Below are positions 6,949 to 53,979 of a stretch of 61,495 nucleotides of DNA, one piece after another; position 1 is the first letter of the stretch, and each line of letters begins with the position of its first letter. The notes under the pieces are model-generated. The model had not been told where the DNA came from and ran no database searches. It saw nothing but the letters and a program-made list of their open reading frames with translations. Source of the DNA: a virus; the IMG/VR virus record IMGVR_UViG_3300023196_001512, positions 1 to 61,495 of that record; one strand, 5' to 3'. The position numbers and the translations under genes are program-made.

Positions 6949-7007
6949 AATTGGTATATTGGTTTAATTAATAATTACACGTTAGTGTTTCACTTTTAAT
7001 ACATAAC

Positions 7008-7754
7008 TTACAGGTAATCAGTCACTTGTGAGTGAGCTATTGCCTTTTTAAGTTTGTCTAACGCCTGTCTTTTTAGCTGTGACACGCGTACATAAGAGCT
7101 ATTGCCTTTGATACCTAGATGATTAGCTATCTCTGTAGCTGATTTTTTCTCACTATCAATACCGTAACTCATTTTAATAACGTCAGACTCTTTCTGCGTT
7201 AAGTTTTTATCTACTATTTTAGATATTATATTTGCTAAATCTTCGTTGTTTAACTCATACTCATTTTCAGGAACATCATATATAAGTTTCTTGTCTTCAA
7301 GAGCTTCTATTGACGTAAACACAGAGTTAAAAAACATTTCAGAAGCTTTTTTGTCGTCATCAAAGTTCTTGCGTATCTCATTTAGCTTATGCTCTGGTAT
7401 ACGCATGCTACCACGATTATTATCAATAGCTCTACGTATTGCACCTTTAATACGCTTAGCTAAAAAAGATTTTAATCTTTTCTCAGGATCATCAGCTTCG
7501 TATATAGTGTCCCACACTATTTTGTCTACAGCTTTTATTAAGCCTAAGCTACCTTCTTGTATCATGTCTACAATAGTCATAACGCCAGAAGCTTGTTCAG
7601 ATGTAGAAAACTTACGAGCCAAGTTCTCAACTAAAGGCATGAACTTAGTTATAAGCTCATCTCTAGTATACTCATCCCAAATTTTACCGTCAGGTTGAGA
7701 AGCTTTTAAATCAGCTCTATATCTATTGAAATTTTCTTGATCATACTTTTTCAT
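7008..7754 (-). CDS. Phage RNA polymerase sigma factor, sigma-70 family
   Basis: A 248-aa sigma factor that would bind host core RNA polymerase and redirect it to phage promoters. Seen: region 2 with ITKFMPLVENLARKF (35-49) and DMIQEGSLGLIKAVDK (63-78), the promoter-melting and core-binding helix; a basic stretch with FLAKRIKGAIRRAI (97-110); region 4 from about 184 (LTQKESDVIKMSYGI) with a helix-turn-helix in SATEIANHLGI and VRVSQLKRQALDKLKK. Region 1 is missing, as in alternative sigma factors. No phage RNA polymerase is seen in the window, so this protein is the best candidate for controlling the phage programme, possibly through late promoters (inference). It stands alone between two short A/T-rich gaps. 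Confidence 0.93.
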   Translation of the reverse strand: MKKYDQENFNRYRADLKASQPDGKIWDEYTRDELITKFMPLVENLARKFSTSEQASGVMTIVDMIQEGSLGLIKAVDKIVWDTIYEADDPEKRLKSFLAKRIKGAIRRAIDNNRGSMRIPEHKLNEIRKNFDDDKKASEMFFNSVFTSIEALEDKKLIYDVPENEYELNNEDLANIISKIVDKNLTQKESDVIKMSYGIDSEKKSATEIANHLGIKGNSSYVRVSQLKRQALDKLKKAIAHSQVTDYL

Positions 7755-7837: not shown

Positions 7838-8461
7838 TTAACATAATTGTTGGTTTAATAATTCTTTTTCTTTTTTAAGGTCTTGACACATGTGTCTATG
7901 AACCGTACGGCTAGAGACTTTCAGAAGCTCAGAGAGCTTACGTATCGTAATCTTTTGTTTGTTATCGTGCATATCAACCATAACAGCATATATGTCGTCT
8001 GGTTGTATTCTAGGGCTTTGCCCAACTAACTGACCTACGATAGATAATTTCTGTTGTTTTGTTAAACCGCTAAAAGGTTTAAATATTACTTTACGTAATT
8101 TATTATTCGGCGGTCTATCAAGGTCAGACATGTTAACTTCATATATAACTTTATCTAGTAGTTGAGCTGACACATTGAAGCTTACAAAGCCATGACGCTT
8201 TTCAGCTATATACTCTGCTAGATCGGCAAACTCATCTGTGTTAAGACTAGGGTTTAAATACCATACTACAAGCAAGTGCCACTTAAGTGATTTATACGTA
8301 GTAATCTTTGCTGAAGATCTAAACAACTCATAACATTGATGTGTGCCATCTTTATAGTACATAAACTCTTTAGCATCAATATCAGGTTTATCTGTTGTAG
8401 GTAAACGCCTGTATATCAATCGCCTATTGTTTAAATATGTTAGGTTTCTTTCGTGTGACAT
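7838..8461 (-). CDS. Unknown protein with C-terminal helix-turn-helix
   Basis: A 207-aa protein. Residues 30-130 form an unassigned basic domain with aromatic patches (WHLLVVWYLNPSL at 61-73). Residues 174-192 (IRKLSELLKVSSRTVHRHM) fit a helix-turn-helix that binds DNA, in the pattern of plasmid and phage regulators or initiators. It lies between the sigma factor and a run of small unknown genes. The combination of a large N-terminal domain with a short C-terminal HTH is also seen in replication initiators, so it could be either a transcription regulator or an origin-binding protein. Only the HTH is supported by the sequence; the function is inference. Confidence 0.72.
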   Translation of the reverse strand: MSHERNLTYLNNRRLIYRRLPTTDKPDIDAKEFMYYKDGTHQCYELFRSSAKITTYKSLKWHLLVVWYLNPSLNTDEFADLAEYIAEKRHGFVSFNVSAQLLDKVIYEVNMSDLDRPPNNKLRKVIFKPFSGLTKQQKLSIVGQLVGQSPRIQPDDIYAVMVDMHDNKQKITIRKLSELLKVSSRTVHRHMCQDLKKEKELLNQQLC

Positions 8462-8597: not shown

Positions 8598-9054
8598 ATA
8601 ACTTTTCAGTTTTTAGGTTTGCAATATTCTTTTTTTCGTTGATGTAATAATTCCAATAAGCTTGTATACTACATTCATCTTTGTATTCATCAGGCATACA
8701 CTGAGGCATATCTGTTAATCCTGTAAAAGATAGTCCGCCTGGCAATATGTTAAGCTTATCTTTACATTTAGTGTAAGACATATGCTCTTTGCCATAACGT
8801 TTAGTATATTCTTTAGACAACGCTACAAAATGATGGTATAACCATTCATAGTTGTTAGCTGATCGCCTAGCCCATATAGTTGATGGGTGATTGACGTGCG
8901 CACGTTTATAAGGCACGTCAGCATCTTCACCCATGATTTCATGGTGTGCGGTACATAGCATTTGCGCAGATTCTAATATCATCTTAACAACGTGTTTGTT
9001 GTACTGTAGTTTAGCGGCTTCACGCGGGTCTTGGTGTAAATAAAATATATTCAT
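8560..9054 (-). CDS. Conserved phage protein of unknown function (164 aa)
   Basis: A 164-aa soluble protein beginning MNIFYLHQDPREAAKLQYNK, followed by HVVKMILESAQMLCTAHHEI and NHPSTIWARRSANNYEWLY. I recognise this N-terminal block as a family widespread in marine T4-like and podovirus genomes, usually with no assigned function. The histidines and the arginine in conserved-looking blocks suggest an enzyme, possibly nucleic-acid related, but I cannot name an activity. It overlaps its upstream neighbour by 4 bases. No signal or membrane segment is seen. Confidence 0.8.
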   Translation of the reverse strand: MNIFYLHQDPREAAKLQYNKHVVKMILESAQMLCTAHHEIMGEDADVPYKRAHVNHPSTIWARRSANNYEWLYHHFVALSKEYTKRYGKEHMSYTKCKDKLNILPGGLSFTGLTDMPQCMPDEYKDECSIQAYWNYYINEKKNIANLKTEKLYEQRPKETYQAV

Positions 9055-9320
9055 AATTCCTCTACTATTCTTTGTACTTTATCAAGATGCTTCTTAACAG
9101 CTGCACATTTTTCATACTCTTCACGATCTTCATATAAATTTATTAGTGTCATTAGCCTAGCTAACTCACCAACAGCGTGATCATTTAAGTCATCTGCATA
9201 ATATTCCATGGTGTCTCTAGCTTCTGTTTGTTCTACTCCGTAGATGCGCTTAATCAATGCGCCAGCTAGTCTATCTACTAATTTGTCTAATTGTTTTTCA
9301 GTCATGTTTATATTATCCAT
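9051..9320 (-). CDS. Unknown helical protein with UVR-like motif (89 aa)
   Basis: An 89-aa protein predicted to be nearly all helical and acidic. The C-terminal EDREEYEKCAAVKKHLDKV resembles the UVR motif found in UvrB and UvrC (a short helical hairpin used for protein contact), though the match is short. It overlaps genes on both sides by 4 and 8 bases. I do not assign a repair function, because small phage proteins with this helix pattern are usually uncharacterised. Confidence 0.7.
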   Translation of the reverse strand: MDNINMTEKQLDKLVDRLAGALIKRIYGVEQTEARDTMEYYADDLNDHAVGELARLMTLINLYEDREEYEKCAAVKKHLDKVQRIVEEL

Positions 9321-9774
9321 TAGTATTCGTATTAAGTTTGTATCTTCTTATAAGATCACTTGCTTGACCTACAAATATACAGTGATCAGCAGTAGTGTGA
9401 TCATACCTGAATATGCTAATCCATATTTGATCTTTACCCCACCAAAAGTAATATGTGTAGTCAAGATCGCCATGCTCACGGCCTGGTGTTTCTAAATATA
9501 CATTGTGTGATTCATTGCTAACTCTTCCGTAATGTACACCTAGTTTTAAATGTGTTAATAGCTGCGCTGCAAAACAGTCTACGCCGTTATGCGCTTGACC
9601 AACATTACTTGTAAATTCTGCTAATGCAACACCTAAAAAGTCAGGTGCACCATCGTAATGATGGTATATTTGGTGTGTGACTATCTGTCTACTGCAGTCG
9701 TCGTATAGTTTAAAGTCGCTGAATGATACGCCTGATTGACGCTCAGCAAATCGTATTAGTGCTCTAGTTGCCAT
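9313..9774 (-). CDS. Conserved phage protein of unknown function (153 aa)
   Basis: A 153-aa protein starting MATRALIRFAERQSGVSFSD with IYHHYDGAPDFLGVALAEF and later HGDLDYTYYFWW. I recognise the pattern of a start MATRALI, a YHHYDG block and a YLET...HGDLDY block from hypothetical proteins of marine phages. The protein is rich in His, Tyr and Trp and looks like a compact alpha/beta fold. It overlaps both neighbours (8 and 11 bases). Function unknown; it could modify a host enzyme or bind a nucleotide, but nothing in the sequence decides this. Confidence 0.75.
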   Translation of the reverse strand: MATRALIRFAERQSGVSFSDFKLYDDCSRQIVTHQIYHHYDGAPDFLGVALAEFTSNVGQAHNGVDCFAAQLLTHLKLGVHYGRVSNESHNVYLETPGREHGDLDYTYYFWWGKDQIWISIFRYDHTTADHCIFVGQASDLIRRYKLNTNTNG

Positions 9775-11140: not shown

Positions 11141-11512
11141 TTAGTCTTGGTTTAATTGGTTATCATCTTCTTTAATCTCAGCAAACATATTTTCTACATT
11201 TTGCATGATGCTTCTAACTACTTCGTCAGTATTGTCAAAGCAAAAGCTTTCGCAAGTTACTCTGTTGTCGTAGTCAATACCGTAGTCGATACTATAGTTA
11301 TCAAGGTCATCAAAGTCAAAGCCTTCGATAGCTTCTTCAACTAAAAGTTGTAACTTGTCGTACTGTTGTGGTGTTAGTTTAGGTTTGCTTAGATCAGCGT
11401 GCTGCTTTTTATACTGCTCTAGTTGCTCGGTATATTTAGTGATGTCAACGTTGCTGTCAGCAATCATAGACTCTATAGTACCGATCTTTACTTGTAATTC
11501 TTCTTTTGTCAT
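11141..11512 (-). CDS. Unknown coiled-coil acidic protein (123 aa)
   Basis: A 123-aa protein. Residues 1-45 form a probable coiled coil (KEELQVKIGTIESMIADSN), followed by LTPQQYDKLQLLVEEA and a strongly acidic, Asp/Tyr-rich stretch (DFDDLDNYSIDYGIDYD). It is the first gene after promoter-like element A, whose GATAATA box lies about 26 bases upstream of the ATG, so it probably opens an early operon reaching left to at least the Gp88-like gene. Acidic small proteins of this type are often inhibitors that mimic DNA, but that is only a suggestion. Confidence 0.75.
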   Translation of the reverse strand: MTKEELQVKIGTIESMIADSNVDITKYTEQLEQYKKQHADLSKPKLTPQQYDKLQLLVEEAIEGFDFDDLDNYSIDYGIDYDNRVTCESFCFDNTDEVVRSIMQNVENMFAEIKEDDNQLNQD

Positions 11513-11538
11513 ATTGGTTTATTTAATTTGGTTTATAT

Positions 11539-11569
11539 TATTATCTATTGGTAATCGTTTTTAGTTTGT
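11539..11569 (-). promoter_or_regulatory. Promoter-like element A
   Basis: Minus-strand ACAAAC, five bases, ACGA, nine bases, GATAATA. Its spacing equals that of six other copies in this arm. It lies upstream of the 123-aa gene and overlaps the end of the 37-aa membrane gene. The two outer boxes are 18 bases apart, as in a sigma-dependent -35/-10 pair. Confidence 0.72.
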
Positions 11570-11674
11570 AAATAGCTTTATTAGTCCGGCTATAGTTATA
11601 TAGTATATAAAAGCTGTAAAAAGCAAACCTATCCAACCGGCTATAGCTATCAATATAAGTTTAAACCTGCTCAT
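11561..11674 (-). CDS. Tiny membrane protein (37 aa)
   Basis: A 37-aa protein beginning MSRFKLILIAIAGWIGLLFT with one long or two short membrane helices and a short basic N-terminus, then FIYYITIAGLIKLFTN. It overlaps the end of the 71-aa gene by 14 bases and its own stop lies inside promoter-like element A. Hydrophobicity over nearly its full length and the tight overlap support a real gene. Such early phage membrane peptides often act on host membrane functions or in exclusion, but this is inference. Confidence 0.55.
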   Translation of the reverse strand: MSRFKLILIAIAGWIGLLFTAFIYYITIAGLIKLFTN

Positions 11675-11876
11675 TAAGCGTATTTATTTTATCAAAGTCT
11701 TCTTTTTCATAATAGTAAGCATACAACTGTGCTCTATAATCGTTCACTTTAGCTTGCCAGTAAGTAGCGTCGGTTACAAAACCATACTCTTTATAGTGGC
11801 CGGCTTGCTGTATAGCATGTGACAGTAGCTGCTTAAGTACTCTCTCGCTTTTGTATTGCACTTTTAATTTAGTCAT
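11661..11876 (-). CDS. Unknown small protein (71 aa)
   Basis: A 71-aa protein rich in tyrosine, lysine and glutamine, starting MTKLKVQYKSERVLKQLLSH and predicted to be helical throughout. The segment YWQAKVNDYRAQLYAYYYEK has spacing of a helical hairpin. It overlaps the gene before it by 4 bases and the tiny membrane gene after it by 14. No family recognised. Confidence 0.7.
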   Translation of the reverse strand: MTKLKVQYKSERVLKQLLSHAIQQAGHYKEYGFVTDATYWQAKVNDYRAQLYAYYYEKEDFDKINTLNEQV

Positions 11877-12373
11877 GATAAATTGTATCTGTGTCCGTTA
11901 ACTATTACTTGTACTTCATCGCCAAATGGTAATCTGTTACTTGACTTGTTGTTGTAATCTCTTACATACGCTTCACGTAAACATTTCATAACGTGGTCAC
12001 TCATTGTGTACGTAGTCTTTTGATAGTAGTTCTTGATAATAAACTTAGCTAAGTATATTAGACGCTCTTCCCAACTATCAATCATTATACGCTCTTTGCC
12101 TGTCATACCTGACTCATAAACTACTGGTTTAGTCTTGTTTATTTGATAAGAGCTTGCCAAGCCTTCGGTAACATTACGTACATAACCTGTAGTATACGTA
12201 GCAAAACGTAAAGGTTTAGGGTCTAGTGTTTGCCATACTTGGCTGATTGGTAATTCAAATACTTGCGTACCATTTTCATGTTGACGCTTTGTTGTAATAT
12301 CTTTGATACCTAGTATCTTGAAGATAGTCATTGCCTCGCGGGCAGATGTAATTTCTGTTGACATGTATTCCAT
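11873..12373 (-). CDS. Unknown protein (166 aa)
   Basis: A 166-aa protein beginning MEYMSTEITSAREAMTIFKI. A second ATG three codons in (12364) is an equally good start. The middle has FATYTTGYVRNVTEGLASSY and the C-terminal third is basic with VMKCLREAYVRDYNN. It is the second gene behind promoter-like element B. No membrane segment, signal or known motif was seen. It may be an early host-interaction protein, judged only from its position. Confidence 0.72.
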   Translation of the reverse strand: MEYMSTEITSAREAMTIFKILGIKDITTKRQHENGTQVFELPISQVWQTLDPKPLRFATYTTGYVRNVTEGLASSYQINKTKPVVYESGMTGKERIMIDSWEERLIYLAKFIIKNYYQKTTYTMSDHVMKCLREAYVRDYNNKSSNRLPFGDEVQVIVNGHRYNLS

Positions 12374-12378
12374 ATTGT

Positions 12379-12591
12379 TTATAATTTAATTTGGTTTATA
12401 GTATGGTCAGAGTGTATCATCCACTCGCAGTCTTTCAGCCTGTGACCTTGATCGATTAGTAATTGTTCTACTTCTTCTGCTTGAGGTTCATCTTTATCTT
12501 TGAACAAATAGTTGTCGCCAACTTCTTGTAGATTGTATTGGTAAATTGCACCGTCGCCAAAGTCTAATACTGTAATGTATGTAAAATCCAT
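12379..12591 (-). CDS. Unknown small acidic protein (70 aa)
   Basis: A 70-aa acidic protein, MDFTYITVLDFGDGAIYQYN at the start, then EPQAEEVEQLLIDQGHRLKD. The beta-strand-rich N-terminus with a following helix suggests a compact alpha/beta fold. It is the first gene after promoter-like element B, whose GATAATA box is about 18 bases upstream of the ATG. Function unknown. Confidence 0.72.
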   Translation of the reverse strand: MDFTYITVLDFGDGAIYQYNLQEVGDNYLFKDKDEPQAEEVEQLLIDQGHRLKDCEWMIHSDHTINQIKL

Positions 12592-12608
12592 AGTTGTTTA
12601 TTTAATTA

Positions 12609-12639
12609 TATTATCTGTTAGTAATCGTTTTTAATTTGT
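12609..12639 (-). promoter_or_regulatory. Promoter-like element B
   Basis: Minus-strand ACAAAT, five bases, ACGA, nine bases, GATAATA, upstream of the 70-aa gene. It lies in a 115-base gap (12592-12706) with no other recognisable gene. Confidence 0.72.
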
Positions 12640-12706
12640 TATAGAAAACGAGGTGGGTGAAACTGGTTAATTTTTATATCACCTTTAGTCCAGACACACT
12701 CGTATA

Positions 12707-12922
12707 TTATCTAAGACACGTGCCGTAACCTTTACGACGACTAGCCTTAGCTACCGCAATTGAAACTGCTTGCGATACTATCTGTATTGTGTTACCTGTT
12801 TTGTGATTAGTGATTGGAGCTGACGCTACACGCTCAATACCACTACAAGATACACATGTTTTATACCCGTACTTTTGTCTTACTGGGTGAACGGGCTCAC
12901 CACACTTACAATAATTTGCCAT
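12707..12922 (-). CDS. Small zinc-ribbon protein (71 aa)
   Basis: A 71-aa protein with an N-terminal zinc-binding knot: NYCKCGEPVHPVRQKYGYKT followed by CVSCSG, giving two cysteine pairs. The C-terminal half is basic (VAKASRRKGYGTCLR) and could bind nucleic acid. It follows promoter-like element C and is probably a one-gene transcript. Short zinc-ribbon proteins are common among early phage regulators; what it binds is unknown. Confidence 0.72.
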   Translation of the reverse strand: MANYCKCGEPVHPVRQKYGYKTCVSCSGIERVASAPITNHKTGNTIQIVSQAVSIAVAKASRRKGYGTCLR

Positions 12923-12945
12923 AGTTAACAGTCTTTTGTCATATA

Positions 12946-12976
12946 TATTATCTGAAGGCAGTCGTATACAATTTGT
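12946..12976 (-). promoter_or_regulatory. Promoter-like element C
   Basis: Minus-strand ACAAAT, five bases, ACGA, nine bases, GATAATA, upstream of the zinc-ribbon gene and directly after the row of tiny membrane genes. The GATAATA box is about 24 bases from the ATG. Confidence 0.72.
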
Positions 12977-13002
12977 ATAGTTGTGCCGTGTATAGCAAGC
13001 GA

Positions 13003-13080
13003 CTAGTTGTAGATTTGCCGCTTGAGTGCTACAATAAAGTAATATATTATTAGGTATACAGTTAAGTCTACTGGTGTCAT
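13003..13080 (-). CDS. Tiny membrane protein (25 aa)
   Basis: A 25-codon gene, MTPVDLTVYLIIYYFIVALK then a short basic end. Nearly all of it is one membrane helix. Its ATG overlaps the TGA of the preceding 29-aa gene as ATGA. With the two preceding genes it forms a row of three overlapping membrane peptides in a stretch that otherwise holds no gene. Very short, so certainty rests on the overlap pattern and hydrophobicity. Confidence 0.5.
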   Translation of the reverse strand: MTPVDLTVYLIIYYFIVALKRQIYN

Positions 13081-13166
13081 TTTCTTTGATTTGTTTTAAT
13101 ATCTAAGTATACAAATGTTGAAGCGCATACTAATACAATGAGTGCTATCTTAACGTACTCTATCAT
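13077..13166 (-). CDS. Tiny membrane protein (29 aa)
   Basis: A 29-aa protein, MIEYVKIALIVLVCASTFVY, followed by a basic tail with KTNQRK. One membrane helix of about 16-18 residues is visible. Its ATG overlaps the TGA of the 36-aa gene and its TGA overlaps the ATG of the 25-aa gene, both as ATGA, which strongly suggests coupled translation. Function unknown. Confidence 0.55.
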   Translation of the reverse strand: MIEYVKIALIVLVCASTFVYLDIKTNQRK

Positions 13167-13273
13167 TTAAGTAGATTTATAAGTATTAGTGATACAATAC
13201 ACACAAAGCCACCTATCATGGCGATGTTCTCTACAACTTCAAAGAAGTTTGCTTTAGGTTTTCTTAGTTTCAT
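13163..13273 (-). CDS. Tiny membrane protein (36 aa)
   Basis: A 36-aa protein with a basic N-terminal part (MKLRKPKANFFEVVENIAMI) and one membrane helix (GGFVCIVSLILINLL). It begins 11 bases after the stop of the 64-aa gene and its end overlaps the next tiny gene as ATGA. The positive-inside pattern would place the N-terminus in the cytoplasm. No family recognised. Confidence 0.58.
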   Translation of the reverse strand: MKLRKPKANFFEVVENIAMIGGFVCIVSLILINLLK

Positions 13274-13284
13274 AATATTATTTT

Positions 13285-13479
13285 TTAGTGTAAGTTATCC
13301 CACACTAGTTCATGTATTAACTCGTAATCTTCATTGAGGTCATCGAGTTGTTCATCAGTCATTTCTTTACCATCATAGTCTGCACTGTCTATAAAGGCAT
13401 CGCAGTAATCTGGGTAGTCCCAGTGGTGAATACCATCTAGTACTACATTGGTAATTTTGGTGTATTCAAATTTAGTCAT
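13285..13479 (-). CDS. Unknown small acidic protein (64 aa)
   Basis: A 64-aa, very acidic protein (MTKFEYTKITNVVLDGIHHW at the start, later DGKEMTDEQLDDLNEDYELI). The high Asp/Glu content recalls DNA-mimicking inhibitors, but no family is recognised. It lies 2 bases after the 77-aa gene in the operon driven by promoter-like element D. Confidence 0.7.
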   Translation of the reverse strand: MTKFEYTKITNVVLDGIHHWDYPDYCDAFIDSADYDGKEMTDEQLDDLNEDYELIHELVWDNLH

Positions 13480-13481
13480 AG

Positions 13482-13715
13482 TTAATCTCCTTGTTCTACT
13501 AGTTTGTTAATGTAATCTTCGTTGTAGTGATTGTACTGTGGTGTGTTGTCGTTCCAGAACCTACATCTATCACTAGTTCTAACGAAATGTTTCTTTAGTT
13601 CTTTATGTATTAGTTCATAGTGAGTGCGACCACGTAAGTACACTTTGTTGTCATCACTCATATCGTGGTGATGGTCGTGGATTTGTATCTGTTCTGATAG
13701 TTCCTGTATAGTCAT
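13482..13715 (-). CDS. Unknown histidine-rich small protein (77 aa)
   Basis: A 77-aa protein starting MTIQELSEQIQIHDHHHDMS. The HDHHHD cluster could bind a metal. The rest is charged and aromatic, with no known motif. Its ATG overlaps the stop region of the 43-aa gene, matching the coupled style of the arm. Function unknown. Confidence 0.7.
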   Translation of the reverse strand: MTIQELSEQIQIHDHHHDMSDDNKVYLRGRTHYELIHKELKKHFVRTSDRCRFWNDNTPQYNHYNEDYINKLVEQGD

Positions 13716-13716
13716 A

Positions 13717-13848
13717 TTACTTATGCTTTTTAAATATTAGTGCTTTAATTTCTTCTCTTTCTTCGTAGCTACAAGTATCGTAGCCAAACTCGCCGTATAT
13801 TGTTTTAGCGTAATAGTCAGATAGTATGTTAAACTTTTGCTTAGTCAT
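13717..13848 (-). CDS. Unknown small protein (43 aa)
   Basis: A 43-aa protein, MTKQKFNILSDYYAKTIYGE then FGYDTCSYEEREEIKALIFK. It lies one base after the stop of the preceding gene and touches the next start, filling a 134-base gap exactly. It looks like a small helical protein with a tyrosine-rich first half. No family recognised. Confidence 0.6.
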   Translation of the reverse strand: MTKQKFNILSDYYAKTIYGEFGYDTCSYEEREEIKALIFKKHK

Positions 13849-13849
13849 A

Positions 13850-14080
13850 TTACTTAGTTTGTAAGCCACCGATGGCTTTGTTTAATGTAATTCTTGATTG
13901 CTTATCGGCGTTCCAGTTTAATTCACTTGCTGAGATGTAGCAATAGCCTTTGTAGTTGAATTGAGAAGATGTAGGTATTTCCTCGTAATTCTTAGGCAAC
14001 TGATGAAGTTGATGAGGTATGTATTTAGTATTGCCGAGTGTAATAATGTTTGTAGAAACATCGAGTTTTAATGTGTGCAT
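13850..14080 (-). CDS. Unknown small protein (76 aa)
   Basis: A 76-aa protein read from the ATG at 14080 (MHTLKLDVSTNIITLGNTKY). An in-frame ATG seven codons upstream (14101) lies only a few bases behind the GATAATA box of promoter-like element D, about where transcription would begin, so the internal start with a roughly 20-base leader is preferred. The protein has mixed beta and coil character with YCYISASELNWNADKQS near the end. It opens an operon of six small genes reaching to 13003. Function unknown. Confidence 0.68.
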   Translation of the reverse strand: MHTLKLDVSTNIITLGNTKYIPHQLHQLPKNYEEIPTSSQFNYKGYCYISASELNWNADKQSRITLNKAIGGLQTK

Positions 14081-14104
14081 GGTATATAATTTTATATTCA
14101 TTTA

Positions 14105-14135
14105 TATTATCTGTAGGTAGTCGTTTTCAGTTTGT
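14105..14135 (-). promoter_or_regulatory. Promoter-like element D
   Basis: Minus-strand ACAAAC, five bases, ACGA, nine bases, GATAATA, in front of the six-gene operon of 14080-13003. It is one of the best copies of the family. Confidence 0.75.
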
Positions 14136-14220
14136 AAAGAGGGTACTATCGTTTATCACTTAAAATATAGGTGTAGGGTATTGTACACTATCTCTCAATG
14201 AGTAATGAAATTACATTTAC

Positions 14221-14272
14221 AAAAGTGTGACAGTAGGTAGTTAAACTAATAAGAGTAACTACCTTGTGTCAC
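14221..14272 (-). terminator. Hairpin terminator after the 79-aa gene
   Basis: Two stems, GTGACA with TGTCAC and GGTAGTTA with TAACTACC, separated by a three-base internal mismatch and closed by a 12-base loop. On the minus strand the hairpin is followed by ACTTTT. It begins 6 bases after the stop of the 79-aa gene and would stop that transcript before element D. Confidence 0.7.
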
Positions 14273-14277
14273 TGTTT

Positions 14278-14517
14278 TTACTTAGTATCAGACAAGTGTC
14301 GAGCGAAGGCAGGCACCGCGTTACTATTAGTGTAGTTACCGTATTGTTGAAAACAAGGCATCGACTCGAAACGTTCTTGGTAGGTAGAATATACTTCATC
14401 GTGATTATAAGTATGAGTTTCACCTTTTTTGTTAGTGAAGGTGATTATAGTATTTTCACCGATTAGACTTTTTCTGATAACAAATCTTTTTGTAGTAATA
14501 GTGTTTAAATTTGACAT
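14278..14517 (-). CDS. Paralogous small protein, copy 1 (79 aa)
   Basis: A 79-aa protein whose core TTKRFVIRKSLIGENTIITF and GNYTNSN block is repeated in the next upstream gene (77 aa), so the two are tandem paralogues. The sequence suggests a small beta-rich fold with a cysteine and several aromatic residues. It has its own promoter-like element (E) and its own hairpin terminator, so it is a one-gene unit. Function unknown; duplicated single-gene early units often encode dosage-dependent host-takeover proteins (inference). Confidence 0.75.
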   Translation of the reverse strand: MSNLNTITTKRFVIRKSLIGENTIITFTNKKGETHTYNHDEVYSTYQERFESMPCFQQYGNYTNSNAVPAFARHLSDTK

Positions 14518-14559
14518 AGTAATTTAATTTTAGTAGTTAATTATTTTTAGTTACAGTTA

Positions 14560-14589
14560 TATTATCTGAATATGTCGTAATAAGTTTGT
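14560..14589 (-). promoter_or_regulatory. Promoter-like element E
   Basis: Minus-strand ACAAAC, five bases, ACGA, eight bases, GATAATA, then TAACTGTAA. It drives paralogue copy 1. The bases behind the GATAATA box are also alike in copies F and G. Confidence 0.75.
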
Positions 14590-14629
14590 GCGGTGAGTTG
14601 AAGCAAAAATGCTATACAAGTGCTATACA

Positions 14630-14645
14630 CCGCCCTTGCGGGCGG
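14630..14645. terminator. GC-rich hairpin behind paralogue copy 2
   Basis: CCGCCC, loop TTGC, GGGCGG, a perfect six-base GC stem. On the minus strand it follows the 77-aa gene by about 16 bases and is followed by TGTATAGCA twice rather than a T tract. Either a terminator of non-classical type or an RNA-processing site. Confidence 0.5.
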
Positions 14646-14661
14646 CGATATTAAGCAGAGA

Positions 14662-14895
14662 CTATTTAGTCTCCACTTGGTGTTCTCTTGCCCATGTTGG
14701 TAAGTTGTTACTGTTAGTATAGTTACCATACTTGTGCCAGCAGTCCATGTTACTTAGTTTTTCTTGATTCGCAGAGTACACAGCATCATGGTCATACGTA
14801 TACGTTTCATCTTTCTTGTTAGTGAAAGTGATGATTGTGTTGTTACCAATTAGTGACTTTCTCATTACGAATCTTTTTGTTGTTAGTGTTGACAT
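14662..14895 (-). CDS. Paralogous small protein, copy 2 (77 aa)
   Basis: A 77-aa protein, MSTLTTKRFVMRKSLIGNNT at the start, with GNYTNSNNLP further on. It shares most of its length with the 79-aa protein of the next gene, including the TTKRFV, RKSLIG and ITFTNKK blocks. Element F stands in front of it and a GC-rich hairpin behind it, so each paralogue comes with its own control signals. Function unknown. Confidence 0.75.
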   Translation of the reverse strand: MSTLTTKRFVMRKSLIGNNTIITFTNKKDETYTYDHDAVYSANQEKLSNMDCWHKYGNYTNSNNLPTWAREHQVETK

Positions 14896-14932
14896 AATAT
14901 TTAATTTAAAGTTTATAATTTATTTACAGTAT

Positions 14933-14962
14933 TATTATCGATTAAAGTCGTATTAAGTTTGT
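14933..14962 (-). promoter_or_regulatory. Promoter-like element F
   Basis: Minus-strand ACAAAC, five bases, ACGA, eight bases, GATAATA, upstream of paralogue copy 2. Contains TAATACGACT, which matches half of a T7 promoter by chance only. Confidence 0.75.
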
Positions 14963-14987
14963 GAGCGTGGCGGTTGCTATACATAAA

Positions 14988-15006
14988 GGCGCCCTGGCGG
15001 GCGGCC
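14988..15006. terminator. GC-rich hairpin between elements F and G
   Basis: CGCCC, loop TGGC, GGGCG, extended imperfectly on both sides. On the minus strand it is followed by CTTTATGTATAGCA. It would end or attenuate a transcript from element G before paralogue copy 2, or mark the remnant of a third unit. Confidence 0.45.
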
Positions 15007-15032
15007 ATTACCTAAAACTTCTATCGTAACTG

Positions 15033-15062
15033 TATTATCAAAACTAGTCGTAGTAAGGTTGT
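15033..15062 (-). promoter_or_regulatory. Promoter-like element G
   Basis: Minus-strand ACAACC, five bases, ACGA, eight bases, GATAATA, the rightmost of the seven copies. No clear gene lies between it and element F, only the hairpin. Confidence 0.65.
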
Positions 15063-15172: not shown

Positions 15173-15202
15173 CTAAACTTCTATACTTCTCATGTGATAA
15201 TA
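15173..15202 (+). promoter_or_regulatory. Weaker plus-strand copy of the promoter-like element
   Basis: CTAAAC, five bases, TACT in place of ACGA, eight bases, then a perfect GATAATA. The spacing is identical to the minus-strand copies. The box is only 5 bases from the ATG at 15208, so the first right-arm transcript may have almost no leader. Confidence 0.45.
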
Positions 15203-15207
15203 TTCGT

Positions 15208-15438
15208 ATGGGTTCACCAATTAAGTTGAAACAAAAGCTATCGCCTAAAGCGGCAGCTGCTAAAAAGGTTAGAGACAAAGCTGCGGCTATGACTCCTAAG
15301 CGTAGAGCTCGTAAAGCAGAGAACCAGCGTATCGGCCAGAGATCAGATTCAGATCTACATCACTCGTCAAGCGGCTTAAAGCGAGTATCAATTAAAAACA
15401 ACCGTGGTAATTTTGGTAACGGTACAAAAACAGAATAA
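15208..15438 (+). CDS. Small basic protein (76 aa), first gene of the right arm
   Basis: A 76-aa, strongly basic protein read from the ATG at 15208 (MGSPIKLKQKLSPKAAAAKK). The frame stays open further upstream to 15073, but that part runs through the control region and has no protein-like composition, so I do not use it. Lys/Ala-rich helices followed by a Ser/His/Gly-rich tail suggest DNA or capsid contact. The stop overlaps the next ATG (TAATG). Similar short basic proteins are frequent in marine phages; function unknown. Confidence 0.7.
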   Translation: MGSPIKLKQKLSPKAAAAKKVRDKAAAMTPKRRARKAENQRIGQRSDSDLHHSSSGLKRVSIKNNRGNFGNGTKTE

Positions 15439-18084: not shown

Positions 18085-18159
18085 ACCCAAACCACAATCC
18101 AAAACCCTAAAACTTAAGACGACAAACAAATTAATTATTAATCATTAAAAATTTTAAAA

Positions 18160-32463: not shown

Positions 32464-35400
32464 ATGGCAGAGATTACTAACAATTTTCTTCAAGGTAAAA
32501 TGAATAAAGACCTTGATGAAAGAATTTTACCTAAAGGACAATATAGAGACGCGATGAATATACAGATCGCTACGTCTGATGGTTCAGATGTTGGTAGTGC
32601 TCAAAGTATTCTTGGAACTAAAGCTCTTTCTGCTATAGGCGCTTATGACTCTACGTCAGTTTGCATAGGCAGTATTAAAGACACTTTAACAGACTGCATA
32701 TACTACTTTGTTAGATCTAGCAATAGAGACTTTATAGCTAAATACGATGCTAGAGCAGATTACGCTACTTTTGTAGCTGTAGACTTGAGTAGAACACCTG
32801 ATTTAACAGATGGAGATGGAAATCCAATAACTTTAGATCCTTTTTTAAAATTTACTGGAAAGCAAATAACAGCTATAAATATTATAGATAATTATTTGTT
32901 TTGGTCAGATGGTGACAACGAGCCTAAAAAAATAGATTTATCTAAAAATTATTCAGGTCTACAAAGTAATCCTCAAAGTTATAATCATCACTCAAGACTT
33001 ATTCTTGATGGCGTCAACTACGGTTTTTTAAAAGAAGAGCACTTAACTGTTATAAAGAAAAAGCCTCTTAGAGCTCCTCAAATAAAAGTAAACTCTTCTA
33101 AAGGCAACGAAAAGTCTTCTATATTCCAAAGACAAATACCTAGATTTTGTGTTAGGTATAAATACGAAGACAATCAACTATCTGCTTTTAGTCCGTTTAC
33201 TCAGCCAGTTTTTAATGCAGAGTATATTGATGATTACAATAGCAACAACTTCTACGATATATCGGAGTCGTATAACACTGCTATGTTAAACTACATTAGT
33301 TCAATAGAAGTCTACGGCTTTGTAGATAATAGTATGCCTGACGATGTTGTTGAAGTAGAAATACTTTACAAAACAGAGGACTCTAATGTAATATATTCTA
33401 TAGCTAAAATAAAAAAAACAGATACAAGTTGGAGTGATATAGGAAGCTATATAGGAGATTTAGGCTTTAATGAGCCAGGTACATATCTTGATACTTCAGG
33501 AAGCTATGTTATAAGAAGTGAAAATGTTTTTACGGCAATAGCAGAAGATCAATTTTTGAGACCTTTCGATAATGTTCCTAGAAAAGCTTTAGCGCAAGAA
33601 GTTGTTGGTAACAGAATAGTTTACGGTAACTACACTCAAAACTACGATTTAGACTCTGTTGATATAGAAGCAACAGCAGCACCGTATTTCTATGAAACAC
33701 AGGACAAACCTGTTAAATCATTAAAATCAGATAGAAGCTATCAAGTAGGAGTGTTGTTTGTCGACGACTACGGAAGAGAAACTCCTGTGTTTACTTCTAC
33801 ACAAGGCGGTTTTAAAACAATTCAAGATTTATCTAGTGAAGCAAGTTGGAAGACTAGTATAAAGGTAAACTCTAATATTCCTGAGTGGGCTCGTTATTAT
33901 AAGTTTTATATAAAAGAATCTTCAGGACAGTATTACAATTTATTAAATCAAAGAGTTTACATACCGTTTTCTCACAGTCAATTTGAAAACAACGAAAGCC
34001 ACGTGTACCTTTCTTTTCCTTCAAAAGATAGATCTAAAATATCTGTTGACGACTACATTGTTTTAAAAACAGTGATGTTAGAGCCTACGCCTTTTAGAGT
34101 AGGCGAAGATAATAAATATAAAGTATTAGACGTTAGTAATGAAGCTCCAGAAGCAATATCATATAAGTTTTATGATCTTGGAGCAGTTGATAACAAAGAG
34201 TCTAATATTTTAACTAGTGAAACGACTGGTATTTTTGTGCAAGACCCAAGCGTTAATGAAGCTGACTTGCAACGTATAGACCAGCAGACTGATACTTTAA
34301 TAATACGAAAAGACGAATGGCAGGCTATTGGTGTAGATGGCGCCGCTTTAACTAATAGCGAAGGTGGTGGAAATGAAACTTCAAATAAAGTAGAAAACCT
34401 TTACGTGTCATGGTCCTTAGGCAGCTTGCAATCTAAAAGATATAAAGTAACAAACGTAAGAGTATCATTAGACAGTAATTATATTATTAGGTTAAGTGAG
34501 GTAATAAATCTTCAAGACGCTTTAATAGCTAACTTAAATGGTCTAGATACTGATGGAGATTTAAACAGGCAGACTAACATGCCTCCTAATCTTAAGTTTA
34601 AGATACAAAGAAAAGATAGATATTCAGATGAAAACTTTTCTGGACATTTCTTTGTTAAGATAGCGGCGGATGAGCTAATAAAATCTCAACTTGTAAACCA
34701 ACCTAAGCAGATAGAAGCTACAGACAAAGTATTAGCTGCTGAAAAACTTTACTTATGGTTAGACGAAGCTGATGCAAGTGCCAGCACAACAAAAAACAGT
34801 AACGTTCAACATTACGATTTAATTACTAATAATTACTATGGTGGAACAGGTTCTCAGCCAGCAGACATTACTGTCCCTATTGATGGCAACGGAATAACTA
34901 ATAGTAAGGTAGAGTGGGATAATCTTTTAAACGCTAATATAGGTTTTGGCGATGGTCAAGGCAAGTTTTTCATTGACGGTATGTACATGGCCGCTTCTAA
35001 TCCATCGCAAACTTTATATGCTAGAGAGTCAGGTCAAGGATGGGTAGGTAGCGCTGATATAAGATATCCAAGTATAGTTTGGAGTAAAACTCAATCAGGC
35101 CAAAATGTAGACGAAAAAACAGGTTGGAGATTAGAAGACGCGCCAGACCAATACACAGCAATAACTTTTTATAATACCACCCTCAGCTATACTTATAATA
35201 CCAGTGAGATGGACGCTACTACGCAAGCGCCTATCAGTTTCAATGCTGCAGACGCTGCAAGCAACTACGTGAACGGTATAGAGCCTATTTTCCAAGCTAA
35301 CGCTGATTATACAAGTAATACTTACAATGAAAATTCTAGAAGATGGTCAAATTCTACTATATATGGATCTAGTAGAGTAGACGATTTAACAAATACATAT

Positions 35401-38400
35401 AGCCCTAACGGCTATTATATGCACGTTTCGTTTTTAGGTCCTGGTGAAGATTTATTTTCTAAAGACCAAGATTTTCCTGACGGCGTAGCATCAAGAGGTA
35501 TAAGATCGTTAGGTAATTATACTCAAGGAATATGGGGCGGTGGAGCTTTTAACAACGGCGCGAGAGATGGTTTTGTAGAAATGGAAGGGCATTATGGCAG
35601 TGCTTTTTTTAATAATTATAATATAGCATCTGCAACAGTACCTGGGCCTAACGTTAAAGCAGGTGAAGCTATGGGTATAAATTATCAAGAAGATCGGTGG
35701 TCTGTTTTAGGTTACGATTTAAACTATCAAGAGCAGCATGAAAGACAGTTTGACCTTACGTATGGAACAGATAACGTACAGAAGGTTCAAGAAATAATTA
35801 GCAATTTAGTTGCTGGTAAAAAGTTTAGATTTTCAGTAGATACTAATAAAGAAATATATACTATATTAGGTGTTGACGTAAAACGCGTATATAATCACAC
35901 GCCTTGGCGCGCGAGAAAAGTGTGGGACGGATCTAGTTTTGTCAACGGTGAAGACAGTGTTGAAGAGGCGGTTCTTGATTGGGCAACTAACAACAGTTAT
36001 ACAGCTGATGTAAATGCTGGAAACTTGATAAACGCTGGCGCAGCTACTGGTGAACAAGCGGTAAGATGGAATACTGTTTTAGATAGACTAGAAGCTTTCG
36101 GAGCTAAATCTAATAGGCGTGTAGTTTACGCTTTAAAATTAGATAAAGATCCTACTTCTTTTGTTTTAAGTTCAAATGACAATACTTTCGACGTTGATAG
36201 TAGCAATAGTTTAATTGAATTTGTAGAAGAGAGTGCTAAATCGTTTTCTAGTGAAGCTAGCACTAATAAAGCTTTGTTTGAAACAGAGCCTGAAAAATCA
36301 GCTGACTTAGATATTTACTATGAGATTAGCGACGCTATACCTGTAGAAATAACAAAAGAAAATAAAGATATTATATTTCCAATAGGATCTAAAGTAGAAA
36401 TCTTAAACTTTGACAAAGCTGTTGATGGAATTGAATTACCTAAAGCTAGATATATCCGCCAAGCTTTTTATTCTGCCGCGGGAGATTTAAGTATTGTTGT
36501 CAACGGGTTAGATGATGCTGATCGTGGATTTAATTATTACGATCCATCTGACGGAGCAACAGAGCTAGATTATGTAGGTAAAATTTTAGCTATAACTAGA
36601 GCTGACGGCAGTGTTGTTCATGTTGAGATCACTCAAAGAAACGCGAGCAGTGCTTATTACACTAGCGGCGACGGCTCAGGAAACTATGGCTACGCTTTAA
36701 GTTTTAAAGTAAAACTTTCACCATCGCTACCTTATTACTCAAACTTTTACAACGTATTTGCTTTTGGCAACGGTATTGAGTCTAACACTGTTAGAGATGA
36801 TTTTAACGGAGTTTCTATAAGAACAGGTGCTAGAGCATCTACAACACTAGATGAGCCTTATAGAGAGGAAGTAAGAGAGCATGGTTTAATATTCTCTGGA
36901 CTATATAATTCTAACACAGGCGTTAACAACTTAAATCAATTTATACAAGCTCAGAAAATAACTAAAGACTTAAATCCTACTTACGGTAGCATACAAAAGT
37001 TGTTTCAACGACAGACTAACTTAGTAGTGTTTTGCGAAGACAGAGTTGTTAAAGTAATTAGCAACAAAGACGCTATATTCAACGCTGATGGTAACCCTCA
37101 GTTAGTTGCTAACGACAGAGTTCTTGGTCAAGTAACTCCTTTTGTTGGTGAGTTTGGTATATCTAAAAATCCAGAGTCTTTTGCTAGCGAATCATATAGA
37201 GCTTATTTTACAGACAAGCAAAGACGAGCCGTGTTAAGACTTTCAATGGACGGTTTAACACCAATATCAGATGCTGGTATGAAAGACTGGTTTGGCGACA
37301 ACTTAGCAGATAATAGTATTGCATGCTTAGGCACATACGACGATGACAAGCAAGAGTACAACTTAACTATAAAAGAAGGTTATAATAAAAATATAATTGC
37401 TAACGACTCTTTTGATGATGGTGTAGAATTAGTTGAAACGTATCTTGGTCAAAATTTAGTTAATACTGCTTTTACTGGAGGTTCAGCATTTACCGATTTA
37501 ACTTCACCGTCAAAACGAGCTCAGTTTTATCTTTCAAAATTAATATATAATTCTGGGCAAATAATAAGAGACGCTAATATCGACGGTACAATAACGCACG
37601 ACTTACCTTCCGCCCCTCCTGTTCTTGAAGCTGGCAGATGGTATATGTCTGAAATAGAGTCGCCATATAACACTAACTTTATCTCAACATCAAGCGGGCT
37701 TGTTGAAACTAATAACATTAACGTTATAGCAGATAGTGGAGTTGCACTTCAAGTTATAGATATTTTTGAATTTGGCTATGGTTCAGAAACAGTAGATGAA
37801 GCAGGTCTAGCAACGCCAGACCTTCATAATTTTAACCAAACAGACGCTGAATTTAGACAAGAGCTACCTTATCACTTTGGCCAGATCTCTGGTGCTGGTG
37901 TAAGCGGTAATACTATGAGTTTTATGCTTGCCGCTAGAGATCACACAAATATAGGTGAGCCGATATTGTTAGCTATATGGAAGCAGCAAGTTGAAGCTCC
38001 TTTTAGTTTTAGAAGCTGGTTTGGCCCTAGTGTAAATCCAGGTTTTGACATAGCTACTATAAAGTTATACGATATAACAGAACCGCCTAGCATGTCAGTG
38101 CCTAGTGGATGGGCCGTGCAGAGCGAAAACTACACTATGCCACATGCGGGTTATAGATATATAGAAGAGTTTTATATTGACGATGAGTATACTGAAGACG
38201 AAAGAGCTCGTCCAATGGTTTACTATAAAGATAATGCTATTCAATTTAATACTGTTAGTAAAGAATATTTAGCCGCTGAAATTTATAACAGCAATTCTAG
38301 CTCGTTTGATCCTGAGGCAGAATACTTAACACCTACGCATGCTGGATATAATTTTTCTTTTACTATAGGCCCTAATGTTGATACAGGGAATATATCTGGA

Positions 38401-39639
38401 AATCTATATGTAAGAGCTTTAATACCTGACGCGTCAGGTAGTGGTGCTGGATTTAGACTTAGCAATGTTAGCGCACCAGGTGAATATGTCATAAATTATA
38501 ATGCCACGTCTGATTATGTGCCAAGCATAGTTACTCAGCCACAAGGATCAGATGCGCAATTGCTAGCTGGTAGCAATTCTACTAGTAGTAACTATACTTT
38601 TTCTTTTAGTCAACTTGCAAACGATACTTTTGAAGGTTCTATTAGTAATATATCAATATTAGATGTTACTCCTACGTTCACCGGTGGTGGTGTTGATAAT
38701 TGGATTCTTGCAGGTTTTGATTCAAGCGTAAGAAACGATTTGTACTGGGAGAAAAGTACTAGCTCTTTAGTTTGGGATAACGTTGATTTAATCGCTTCTA
38801 CTGGAGGTGTAACAGCTAGACAAAACGTAGGACTTTTAAAGACTGGAGATGCTTATACATTGTCTTTTGATTACACTGGAAACACAGGAACGTTTAAAGG
38901 ATATTATTATAATAAAGACGATAAAGGATTTTATTTTGAGCTTGATCAAAATCAAGGTCATTTTAGTCAAAACTTTATTATTGGCGACAACACAAGTAGC
39001 ACGGCTACAAAAAACGCTTTAGTATTATATTTTATTGGCGAAGATGATAATGGCGCTAGTATAAAAGTTGATAATATTGTTTTTAGATCTACTGTAAGAG
39101 AAAACTTCAACGCCAGAACGTTAAGCTATAGCGAACAAGCTAAAGGTTGGATAAGTTTCAAATCTTTCATACCAGAAAGCGGCGTAAGCTTAGGTGGAGA
39201 CTACTACACGTTTAGTAACGGATCAATACACAAGCATCACCAAGAAGAGACTAATAATAACGTTTTCTATGATCAAGCAAGAGTAAATTCTTATATTGAT
39301 TTTATATTTAATGACTCTACTCCTGTAATAAAAGATTTTAAAGCATTATCTTACGAAGGTAGTGCAGGAAAAAGAAACAGTTATGTCGAGCATGTTGATG
39401 GCGCTACTGATGTAAACTACGACAACTTAAACAGTGTTGACGGTTGGTTTGTTTCAAACATAGCTACTGACTTGCAAAGAGGTTCTATACCAGAGTTTAT
39501 TAAAAAAGAAGGTAAATACTATAACTATATAAGAGGAGGTTCTTTTGACAACACAAACTCAGATGACATAGGAAGTTTAAATGTACAAGGCTTAGGTATT
39601 ATTGCTGATGTTGAGTACGATCAAATTATTGTAGACTAA
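32464..39639 (+). CDS. Giant tail / muzzle-type protein (2391 aa)
   Basis: A 2391-aa virion protein. The start TNNFLQGKMNKDLDERILPK and YRDAMNIQIATSDGSDVGSA is the signature I know from tail stabilization (P22 gp10-like, 'muzzle') proteins of crAss-like phages; near the C-terminus GWISFKSFIPESGVSLGGDY, HKHHQEE and KALSYEG also fit. Between them lie long beta-rich sections (Tyr, Asn and Ser rich, few charges) that look like inserted domains and make the protein much longer than its relatives. It would close the tail tube and carry receptor-binding or sugar-binding parts (inference). No transmembrane segment or enzyme motif was seen. Confidence 0.8.
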   Translation: MAEITNNFLQGKMNKDLDERILPKGQYRDAMNIQIATSDGSDVGSAQSILGTKALSAIGAYDSTSVCIGSIKDTLTDCIYYFVRSSNRDFIAKYDARADYATFVAVDLSRTPDLTDGDGNPITLDPFLKFTGKQITAINIIDNYLFWSDGDNEPKKIDLSKNYSGLQSNPQSYNHHSRLILDGVNYGFLKEEHLTVIKKKPLRAPQIKVNSSKGNEKSSIFQRQIPRFCVRYKYEDNQLSAFSPFTQPVFNAEYIDDYNSNNFYDISESYNTAMLNYISSIEVYGFVDNSMPDDVVEVEILYKTEDSNVIYSIAKIKKTDTSWSDIGSYIGDLGFNEPGTYLDTSGSYVIRSENVFTAIAEDQFLRPFDNVPRKALAQEVVGNRIVYGNYTQNYDLDSVDIEATAAPYFYETQDKPVKSLKSDRSYQVGVLFVDDYGRETPVFTSTQGGFKTIQDLSSEASWKTSIKVNSNIPEWARYYKFYIKESSGQYYNLLNQRVYIPFSHSQFENNESHVYLSFPSKDRSKISVDDYIVLKTVMLEPTPFRVGEDNKYKVLDVSNEAPEAISYKFYDLGAVDNKESNILTSETTGIFVQDPSVNEADLQRIDQQTDTLIIRKDEWQAIGVDGAALTNSEGGGNETSNKVENLYVSWSLGSLQSKRYKVTNVRVSLDSNYIIRLSEVINLQDALIANLNGLDTDGDLNRQTNMPPNLKFKIQRKDRYSDENFSGHFFVKIAADELIKSQLVNQPKQIEATDKVLAAEKLYLWLDEADASASTTKNSNVQHYDLITNNYYGGTGSQPADITVPIDGNGITNSKVEWDNLLNANIGFGDGQGKFFIDGMYMAASNPSQTLYARESGQGWVGSADIRYPSIVWSKTQSGQNVDEKTGWRLEDAPDQYTAITFYNTTLSYTYNTSEMDATTQAPISFNAADAASNYVNGIEPIFQANADYTSNTYNENSRRWSNSTIYGSSRVDDLTNTYSPNGYYMHVSFLGPGEDLFSKDQDFPDGVASRGIRSLGNYTQGIWGGGAFNNGARDGFVEMEGHYGSAFFNNYNIASATVPGPNVKAGEAMGINYQEDRWSVLGYDLNYQEQHERQFDLTYGTDNVQKVQEIISNLVAGKKFRFSVDTNKEIYTILGVDVKRVYNHTPWRARKVWDGSSFVNGEDSVEEAVLDWATNNSYTADVNAGNLINAGAATGEQAVRWNTVLDRLEAFGAKSNRRVVYALKLDKDPTSFVLSSNDNTFDVDSSNSLIEFVEESAKSFSSEASTNKALFETEPEKSADLDIYYEISDAIPVEITKENKDIIFPIGSKVEILNFDKAVDGIELPKARYIRQAFYSAAGDLSIVVNGLDDADRGFNYYDPSDGATELDYVGKILAITRADGSVVHVEITQRNASSAYYTSGDGSGNYGYALSFKVKLSPSLPYYSNFYNVFAFGNGIESNTVRDDFNGVSIRTGARASTTLDEPYREEVREHGLIFSGLYNSNTGVNNLNQFIQAQKITKDLNPTYGSIQKLFQRQTNLVVFCEDRVVKVISNKDAIFNADGNPQLVANDRVLGQVTPFVGEFGISKNPESFASESYRAYFTDKQRRAVLRLSMDGLTPISDAGMKDWFGDNLADNSIACLGTYDDDKQEYNLTIKEGYNKNIIANDSFDDGVELVETYLGQNLVNTAFTGGSAFTDLTSPSKRAQFYLSKLIYNSGQIIRDANIDGTITHDLPSAPPVLEAGRWYMSEIESPYNTNFISTSSGLVETNNINVIADSGVALQVIDIFEFGYGSETVDEAGLATPDLHNFNQTDAEFRQELPYHFGQISGAGVSGNTMSFMLAARDHTNIGEPILLAIWKQQVEAPFSFRSWFGPSVNPGFDIATIKLYDITEPPSMSVPSGWAVQSENYTMPHAGYRYIEEFYIDDEYTEDERARPMVYYKDNAIQFNTVSKEYLAAEIYNSNSSSFDPEAEYLTPTHAGYNFSFTIGPNVDTGNISGNLYVRALIPDASGSGAGFRLSNVSAPGEYVINYNATSDYVPSIVTQPQGSDAQLLAGSNSTSSNYTFSFSQLANDTFEGSISNISILDVTPTFTGGGVDNWILAGFDSSVRNDLYWEKSTSSLVWDNVDLIASTGGVTARQNVGLLKTGDAYTLSFDYTGNTGTFKGYYYNKDDKGFYFELDQNQGHFSQNFIIGDNTSSTATKNALVLYFIGEDDNGASIKVDNIVFRSTVRENFNARTLSYSEQAKGWISFKSFIPESGVSLGGDYYTFSNGSIHKHHQEETNNNVFYDQARVNSYIDFIFNDSTPVIKDFKALSYEGSAGKRNSYVEHVDGATDVNYDNLNSVDGWFVSNIATDLQRGSIPEFIKKEGKYYNYIRGGSFDNTNSDDIGSLNVQGLGIIADVEYDQIIVD

Positions 39640-53656: not shown

Positions 53657-53979
53657 TGAAAGTACTGCTAACCACAATACTGCTTTTAATTTGCGTTACG
53701 GCTTATTGTCAAATTGAAGTAGTTCACTTTAACGCCGGCTGGAACGACGCTAACGACATTGAGTGGTTTTCTAAAATAAAAGACTGCGATACTAAAAGCT
53801 TGTTAATAGAAGACGATAATAATCAAAGTAAGTACAAGATAGCAATAGTGCCAACAATAGTAATATTTGATGATGGAGAAGAAGTTAAAAGATTTCAAGC
53901 AGACCTTAGTTTCAAAATGGTTGCAACTAAAGAAGAAGTTAAAGAATATATTGAAGAACTTATAATTAGTAAATTTTAA
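53656..53979 (+). CDS. Exported thioredoxin-like protein without CxxC (107 aa)
   Basis: A 107-aa protein with a signal peptide (MKVLLTTILLLICVTAYCQ, cut probably behind CQ) and a thioredoxin-like body: VVHFNAGWNDAND stands where the FWAxWCGPC active site would be, and KIAIVPTIVIFDDGEEVKRF supplies the cis-proline and following strands. Both active-site cysteines are missing, so it cannot be a normal oxidoreductase and is more likely a binding or chaperone form. It overlaps the T9SS-cargo gene by one base, so the two are co-translated. Confidence 0.7.
   Translation: MKVLLTTILLLICVTAYCQIEVVHFNAGWNDANDIEWFSKIKDCDTKSLLIEDDNNQSKYKIAIVPTIVIFDDGEEVKRFQADLSFKMVATKEEVKEYIEELIISKF

Follow-up and report, generated by a model that had tools for sequence, protein, structure and literature searches.

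We analyzed the virus record IMGVR_UViG_3300023196_001512, whose 61,495 bases are together called the window, with respect to a short element that recurs ahead of its minus-strand genes. Each copy of this element, termed class 1, joins a continuous box, (T)TACAAACTAAATACGA, to the heptamer GATAATA. Judging from sequence, the class-1 elements very likely constitute a promoter class private to phages. We further consider it probable, with less confidence, that they are phage-specific promoters of sigma70 architecture, which would be read by the host core RNA polymerase together with a sigma factor encoded by the phage itself. The features computed were the motif, its spacing and strand bias, the start-site signature, the phage-private distribution, the co-occurrence with the sigma gene, and a genome-specific base at -13.

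The class-1 element in the window and in related phages

Scanning the window with the pattern ACAANYNNNNNACGAN{8,9}GATAATA yielded eight matches, compared with none in 100 dinucleotide shuffles. All eight copies were on the minus strand, and the plus strand of the window contained no match. The original prediction, which was made from the letters of this DNA, had listed seven minus-strand sites. All seven were present with the described boxes at their positions, whereas an eighth copy at 9311-9341 had been overlooked. The gap between ACGA and GATAATA was 9 nucleotides (nt) in five copies (beginning at 9311, 11539, 12609, 12946, and 14105) and 8 nt in three copies (14560, 14933, and 15033), in agreement with the earlier claim that the box spacing is constant to one base. 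Seven copies were located in the divergent region or in gaps that precede minus-strand genes, as had been stated for them, but the additional copy overlaps the 3' end of the open reading frame (ORF) 9313-9774, directly ahead of the gene 9051-9305. ACAAAC and ACGA, which had been described as separate outer and central boxes, were both conserved; however, they are parts of one continuous box at -37 to -22.

Among the matches listed from a scan of 2.9 million viral contigs, many contigs held 2-6 copies. Random matches inside genes had been named as a refutation of the promoter. In 45 whole related records, we found 1-9 copies per record, on a single strand in all records except one, and the reversed pattern gave 0 matches. 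A set of 681 distinct copies was obtained from approximately 2.3 Mb of uncultured related phage DNA with at most 2 mismatches allowed, and the reversed control gave 3. These copies revealed a rigid geometry, in which TACAAACTAAATACGA is followed by 9 nt and then by GATAATA, and their consensus was TTACAAACTAAATACGA-N9-GATAATATAAAT-R. Numbered from the predicted transcription start, ACAAAC is at -36 to -31, ACGA at -25 to -22, and GATAAT at -12 to -7. A-25, C-24, and all of GATAATA were present in 99-100% of the copies and G-23 and A-22 in 94-95%, percentages that are partly circular because most of these positions were used in site selection. T-37, T-30, A-29, A-28, and T-26, which were not part of the selection, were conserved at 73-94%. 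The conservation of ACGA matched that of the -10 element, and the centres of ACGA and ACAAAC are 10 bp apart, on the same face of the helix.

The base at -13 was common to the copies within a genome (0.76 vs. 0.35 expected, z = 35) and varied between phages. At the other spacer positions, within-genome agreement gave z values of approximately 1-4 (-21 to -15) and 7 (-14). Since most neighbouring spacer bases agree little within a genome, recent duplication of promoter copies was ruled out as the source of the -13 signal. Such a genome-specific base suggests that the element is read in trans by a factor that is not the same in every phage.

In host genomes, the motif was at background. The 397 Flavobacteriaceae genomes contained 10 matches, compared with 7 for the reversed control, and the class-1 consensus occurred in only 9 stretches of 84,980 GTDB genomes, several of them in phage-like contigs. 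Both results argue against the idea that phages have borrowed the regulon of a host alternative sigma factor, an explanation that we regard as very improbable and that was rejected on the 397 host-family genomes. In its favor, three near-perfect copies were found in two related Flavobacteriaceae genomes. These copies are on the chromosomes of metagenome-assembled genomes (L134 and L136), and two of them, one per genome, are orthologous, match class 1 perfectly and stand before a small secreted-protein-like gene. The third copy, in one of the two genomes, is near-perfect.

The primary sigma factor of Flavobacterium reads TTTG at -33 and TANNTTTG at -7 (PMC6847099). Class 1 shares A at -11 and T at -7 with the primary promoters of Bacteroidota, but it does not follow the layout of the host primary factor (sigmaABfr): TTTG is absent at -33 and at -8 to -5, TANNTTTG is absent at -12 to -5, and a strong upstream box is present instead (PMC6847099). 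In copy 15033-15062, the host-type -7 consensus TAGTTTTG overlaps the -10 element, and the number of host-type -7 elements in the window was within chance. Among 703 class-1 sites in relatives, approximately 61 (e.g., in L054 and L118) carried a conserved stretch ending in AAACAAACTATATACTTTT directly 5' of ACAAAC, which may represent a tandem host-type promoter at the array's first gene; immediately 5' of class 1, the host-type element TANNTTT was enriched only approximately twofold. GC-rich inverted repeats (CCGCCCTTGCGGGCGG; GGCGCCCTGGCGGGCGGCC) were observed upstream of promoters at 14602-14640 and 14970-15010. The words TGCTATA and TATAGCA occur near these repeats, and they recur ahead of the promoters of some relatives (L022 and L121, for example).

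Predicted transcription starts and leaderless genes

With the G of GATAATA counted as base 1, the predicted transcription start is base 13, 12 nt past the G. Among the 681 copies, base 13 was a purine in 99% (A 0.53, G 0.46), and base 12 was T or C in 83% (T 0.71, C 0.12). At the level of sequence, a sigma70-type promoter whose GATAAT occupies -12 to -7 would carry just this -1/+1 signature. The first ATG of the downstream ORF was at base 13 in 120 sites, compared with 11 sites at base 11, 2 at base 12, 0 at base 14, and 14 at base 15. The 120 sites span 31 of 166 protein families, so the ATG spike does not come from one repeated gene. Together, the base-13 purine and the ATG spike place the putative start 6-8 nt behind the -10 element, which is the distance of a sigma-type promoter. 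Start codons that coincide exactly with the predicted start predict leaderless mRNAs. Approximately a fifth of the downstream genes are of this kind, and the remaining genes have leaders, with a peak of ATG at base 30-37 or so.

In the window, the copy at 9311-9341 (GATAATA at 9317-9311, 9-nt gap) has its predicted start at 9305, the A of the ATG of gene 9305-9051, which would be leaderless. The other predicted class-1 promoters are likewise on the minus strand. RNA from 11539-11569 would start at 11533 and reach the ATG at 11512 after 21 nt, that from 12609-12639 would start at 12603 (12 nt to the ATG at 12591), and that from 12946-12976 would start at 12940 (18 nt to the ATG at 12922). The predicted start of 14105-14135, at 14099, falls within the first ATG of ORF 13850-14101, which suggests that the true start codon is the ATG at 14080, behind a 19-nt leader. 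Of the copies with an 8-nt gap, 14560-14589 would start at 14554 (37 nt to the ATG at 14517), 14933-14962 at 14927 (32 nt to the ATG at 14895), and 15033-15062 at 15027. The last forms a tandem with the copy at 14933 and is the first one within the divergent region. Gene starts are corrected by these predictions, including leaderless ones, as at 9305 and 14080.

Alternatively, a single-subunit (T7-like) or virion RNA polymerase might use the element as its promoter, with the G of GATAATA as the +1 base. The string TTAATACGACT of the T7 promoter occurs in some copies, and ACGA with 9 nt to the G resembles the T7 layout by sight. However, the spike of purine and ATG is at position 13 and not at position 1, and the 8 bases before the G are variable. 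The large window proteins examined contained neither a DxDGD/DFDxD motif nor a polymerase family, and PF00940 had 0 matches in 46 records, which is a weak absence because that search had no positive control. A T7-like promoter was rejected on the start-site statistics and the failure to find a polymerase, the PF00940 part being weak, and we consider it extremely improbable. Equally little credit is given to the element being an RNA leader, an operator, or a replication signal. Repeats before genes can serve such other roles, but an element of this sort is not expected to combine a one-base spike of start codons with a -10 hexamer and a T/C-purine start signature, and the window contains no Rfam family.

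The phage sigma factor, a candidate partner, and a second promoter class

The sigma factor of the window (7008-7754, minus strand) has 248 amino acids (aa) and contains sigma70 regions 2 and 4; it is the proposed reader of the -10 element. The protein aligns with a family of 47 sequences and is related to the SigA, FliA, and RpoS structures. Among 80 loci picked by sigma alone, 61 had strict class-1 copies and 67 had relaxed copies. The 13 loci without the motif all extend at most 2.2 kb upstream of sigma, and every locus with more than 2.2 kb has the motif. At these loci, 197 strict copies were on the strand of sigma and 0 on the other. The sigma family profile was found in 36 of 46 motif records; in the other 10, the motif cluster was close to the contig end on the sigma side.

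Terminase relatives sampled irrespective of both features were also compared. Sigma was present in none of these 37 relatives and the motif in one, at a contig edge, and the sequenced relatives MW202828, NC_055852, NC_021792, and NC_021796 had neither. In the terminase tree, the sigma-positive phages formed one clade. Several relatives nested in this clade without sigma are fragments of 26-43 kb and were not scored as losses. The co-occurrence of sigma and motif is strong as an association and weak as proof. In one relative (G020, 18109-18145), the sigma gene is immediately preceded by a class-1 promoter whose predicted start base coincides with the sigma ATG, and self-activation of sigma is possible there.

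The original prediction had seen in the element a promoter specific to phages, used by a sigma factor of either the host or the phage, with the central ACGA as a possible additional activator contact. The start-site geometry, the phage-private motif, and the constant pairing with sigma speak for this view, and of the two factors the phage sigma probably reads the class-1 promoters. Our inferences on the reader of each box, on timing, and on feedback are as follows. The host core RNA polymerase would carry the phage sigma factor, whose region 2 would read GATAAT at -12 to -7. The continuous box at -37 to -22 would stand in for a normal -35 element, with sigma region 4 over ACAAAC and probably a second phage protein over TAAATACGA. 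RNA synthesis would begin 12 nt past the G of GATAATA. The class-1 promoters would drive the block of small genes ahead of sigma, and sigma would thereby amplify its own operon.

No sigma factor of this class is known to read -30 to -22, which makes a second protein plausible; we rate the chance that such a protein is at ACGA as about even. The best candidate for the second reader, at the box from -37 to -22, is a 207-aa protein with a C-terminal helix-turn-helix (HTH), to which this role is assigned tentatively. Its gene (7838-8461, minus strand) is directly upstream of sigma, and a gene for a C-terminal HTH protein was directly upstream of sigma in 52 of 52 sigma loci. Matches of the protein to HTH families were weak and below the cut-off, and a confident structure model gave no fold match.

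A second promoter class was recognized in many of these phages, in which the first opposite-strand gene has its own class-2 promoter with the ATG at base 13. Class 2 there consists of an upstream box, often containing GTCACACTTTTAA, followed by TGTAATAATA or TGTGATAATA. In the alignment, TTTAA was approximately 15 nt ahead of the TG of a canonical extended -10 element (TG at -15/-14), and start codons were at base 13 or at 29-33. The extended -10 pattern TGT[AG]AT[AT]ATA with the TTTAA box was often leaderless and was found before late and replication genes. In the window, a predicted class-2 element, TGTGATAATA, is at 15193-15202 on the plus strand, with its predicted start at 15208, the A in the start codon (ATG) of the first gene on the late side, which would be leaderless. 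Another, TGTAATTAT, is at 6971-6979 on the minus strand, behind sigma; it has a TTAAA box upstream, and transcription would start at 6964 with a 16-nt leader to the ATG at 6948 of an Erf-like gene. Because [AG]ATAATA at -12 to -6 is common to class 1 and class 2, one -10 reader with two upstream partners is suggested.

The two classes could also be divided between two sigma factors. A phage activator at -37 to -22 might redirect the host polymerase with its primary sigma factor, like MotA and AsiA of T4, and the phage sigma would serve only class 2 (TGTAATAATA). As in T4 middle promoters, class 1 combines a near-perfect -10 element with a box centred near -30, the position of the MotA box (PMC6755090). 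In addition, the class-1 block is ahead of sigma with class 2 on replication and late genes, and the co-conserved HTH protein exists. However, the primary sigma factor of Flavobacterium reads TANNTTTG and not GATAATA (PMC6847099), the [AG]ATAATA of both classes suggests one region-2 reader, and relatives without sigma have neither class. We judge a division of this kind to be unlikely.

Reading of class 1 by the phage sigma, which we prefer, meets several difficulties of its own. Sigma alone does not explain ACGA, given that the region -30 to -22 is not known to be read by classic sigma factors. If class 1 depends on the phage sigma, the first sigma has to be produced by other means. The class-1 block is placed like early genes, and class 2 could be the true sigma target. 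The restriction of sigma to one clade means that its pairing with the motif may be a single event of descent. An apparent start codon was within the -10 element in 4 of 237 strict sites. No column of the sigma factor or the HTH protein clearly accounts for the -13 base, and no clean determinant residue was found; descent confounds the mapping. A more elaborate arrangement is offered tentatively, as somewhat doubtful: a composite holoenzyme of host core, phage sigma, and HTH protein might read GATAATA and, as one continuous element spanning two major grooves, -37 to -22; with another partner, this sigma might read TTTAA / TGTAATAATA, and the -13 preference might have diverged between phages.

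Comparison with known systems and the setting of the phage

Phage sigma factors with cognate promoters are a kind of system known from SPO1 and T4. The features new here are the composite structure of the element, its leaderless mode of use, and the base at -13 that is specific to each genome, whereas the pairing of a phage sigma with cognate promoters was already known. In phiEco32 and 7-11, a phage sigma and its cognate promoters (TAATGTATA) were predictable from the genome sequence alone (PMC4331800). The likeness is that a phage sigma redirects the host polymerase to a few well-conserved phage promoters of middle and late blocks (PMC4331800). The motif of phiEco32 and 7-11 is short, whereas a 15-bp upstream box accompanies the -10 element here; further differences are leaderless starts, hosts among the Bacteroidota, and a second class that has a different upstream box.

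The middle promoters of T4 (MotA box and -10 element, AsiA/MotA) are similar in that an upstream box near -30 replaces the -35 element and the -10 element is strict (PMC6755090). They differ from class 1, which has another sequence, a 9-nt gap, and its own phage sigma. No Pfam match to the MotA or AsiA families was found among the early window proteins scanned, and the HTH protein present is unrelated. Leaderless genes with an adjacent -10 element in Deinococcus-Thermus and other bacteria likewise have the -10 element directly before the ATG, with A as +1 (PMC3160421, PMC12340547), but class 1 differs in belonging to phages and in having a long upstream box. Transcripts of the host group mostly have leaders of >10 nt (PMC6847099).

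Little is known of how Bacteroidota phages control transcription, and the open literature searched yielded no phage promoter class for this group. The present analysis provides a large uncultured marine phage clade with a promoter whose starts are predicted to a single base, a matching sigma factor, and a candidate co-factor. The promoters may also serve as expression parts that should stay silent in uninfected hosts.

The users of the class-1 motif are a large group of uncultured marine flavobacterial phages. No relative of the window was found at the DNA level in the phage collection, and a search with the 50-mer consensus gave matches at chance level only. The terminase and portal of the window fall into the families found in the Flavobacterium elemo and Cellulophaga podoviruses, and its genes include those for GroEL, replication and recombination proteins, and the sigma factor. 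On the plus strand, a 2391-aa protein (32464-39639) matches the crAss-phage muzzle domain PF25729 at its C-terminus, barely over the cut-off. A 608-aa protein (53979-55805, plus strand) carries a Por secretion C-terminal sorting domain (PF18962), which is unusual for a phage structural region.

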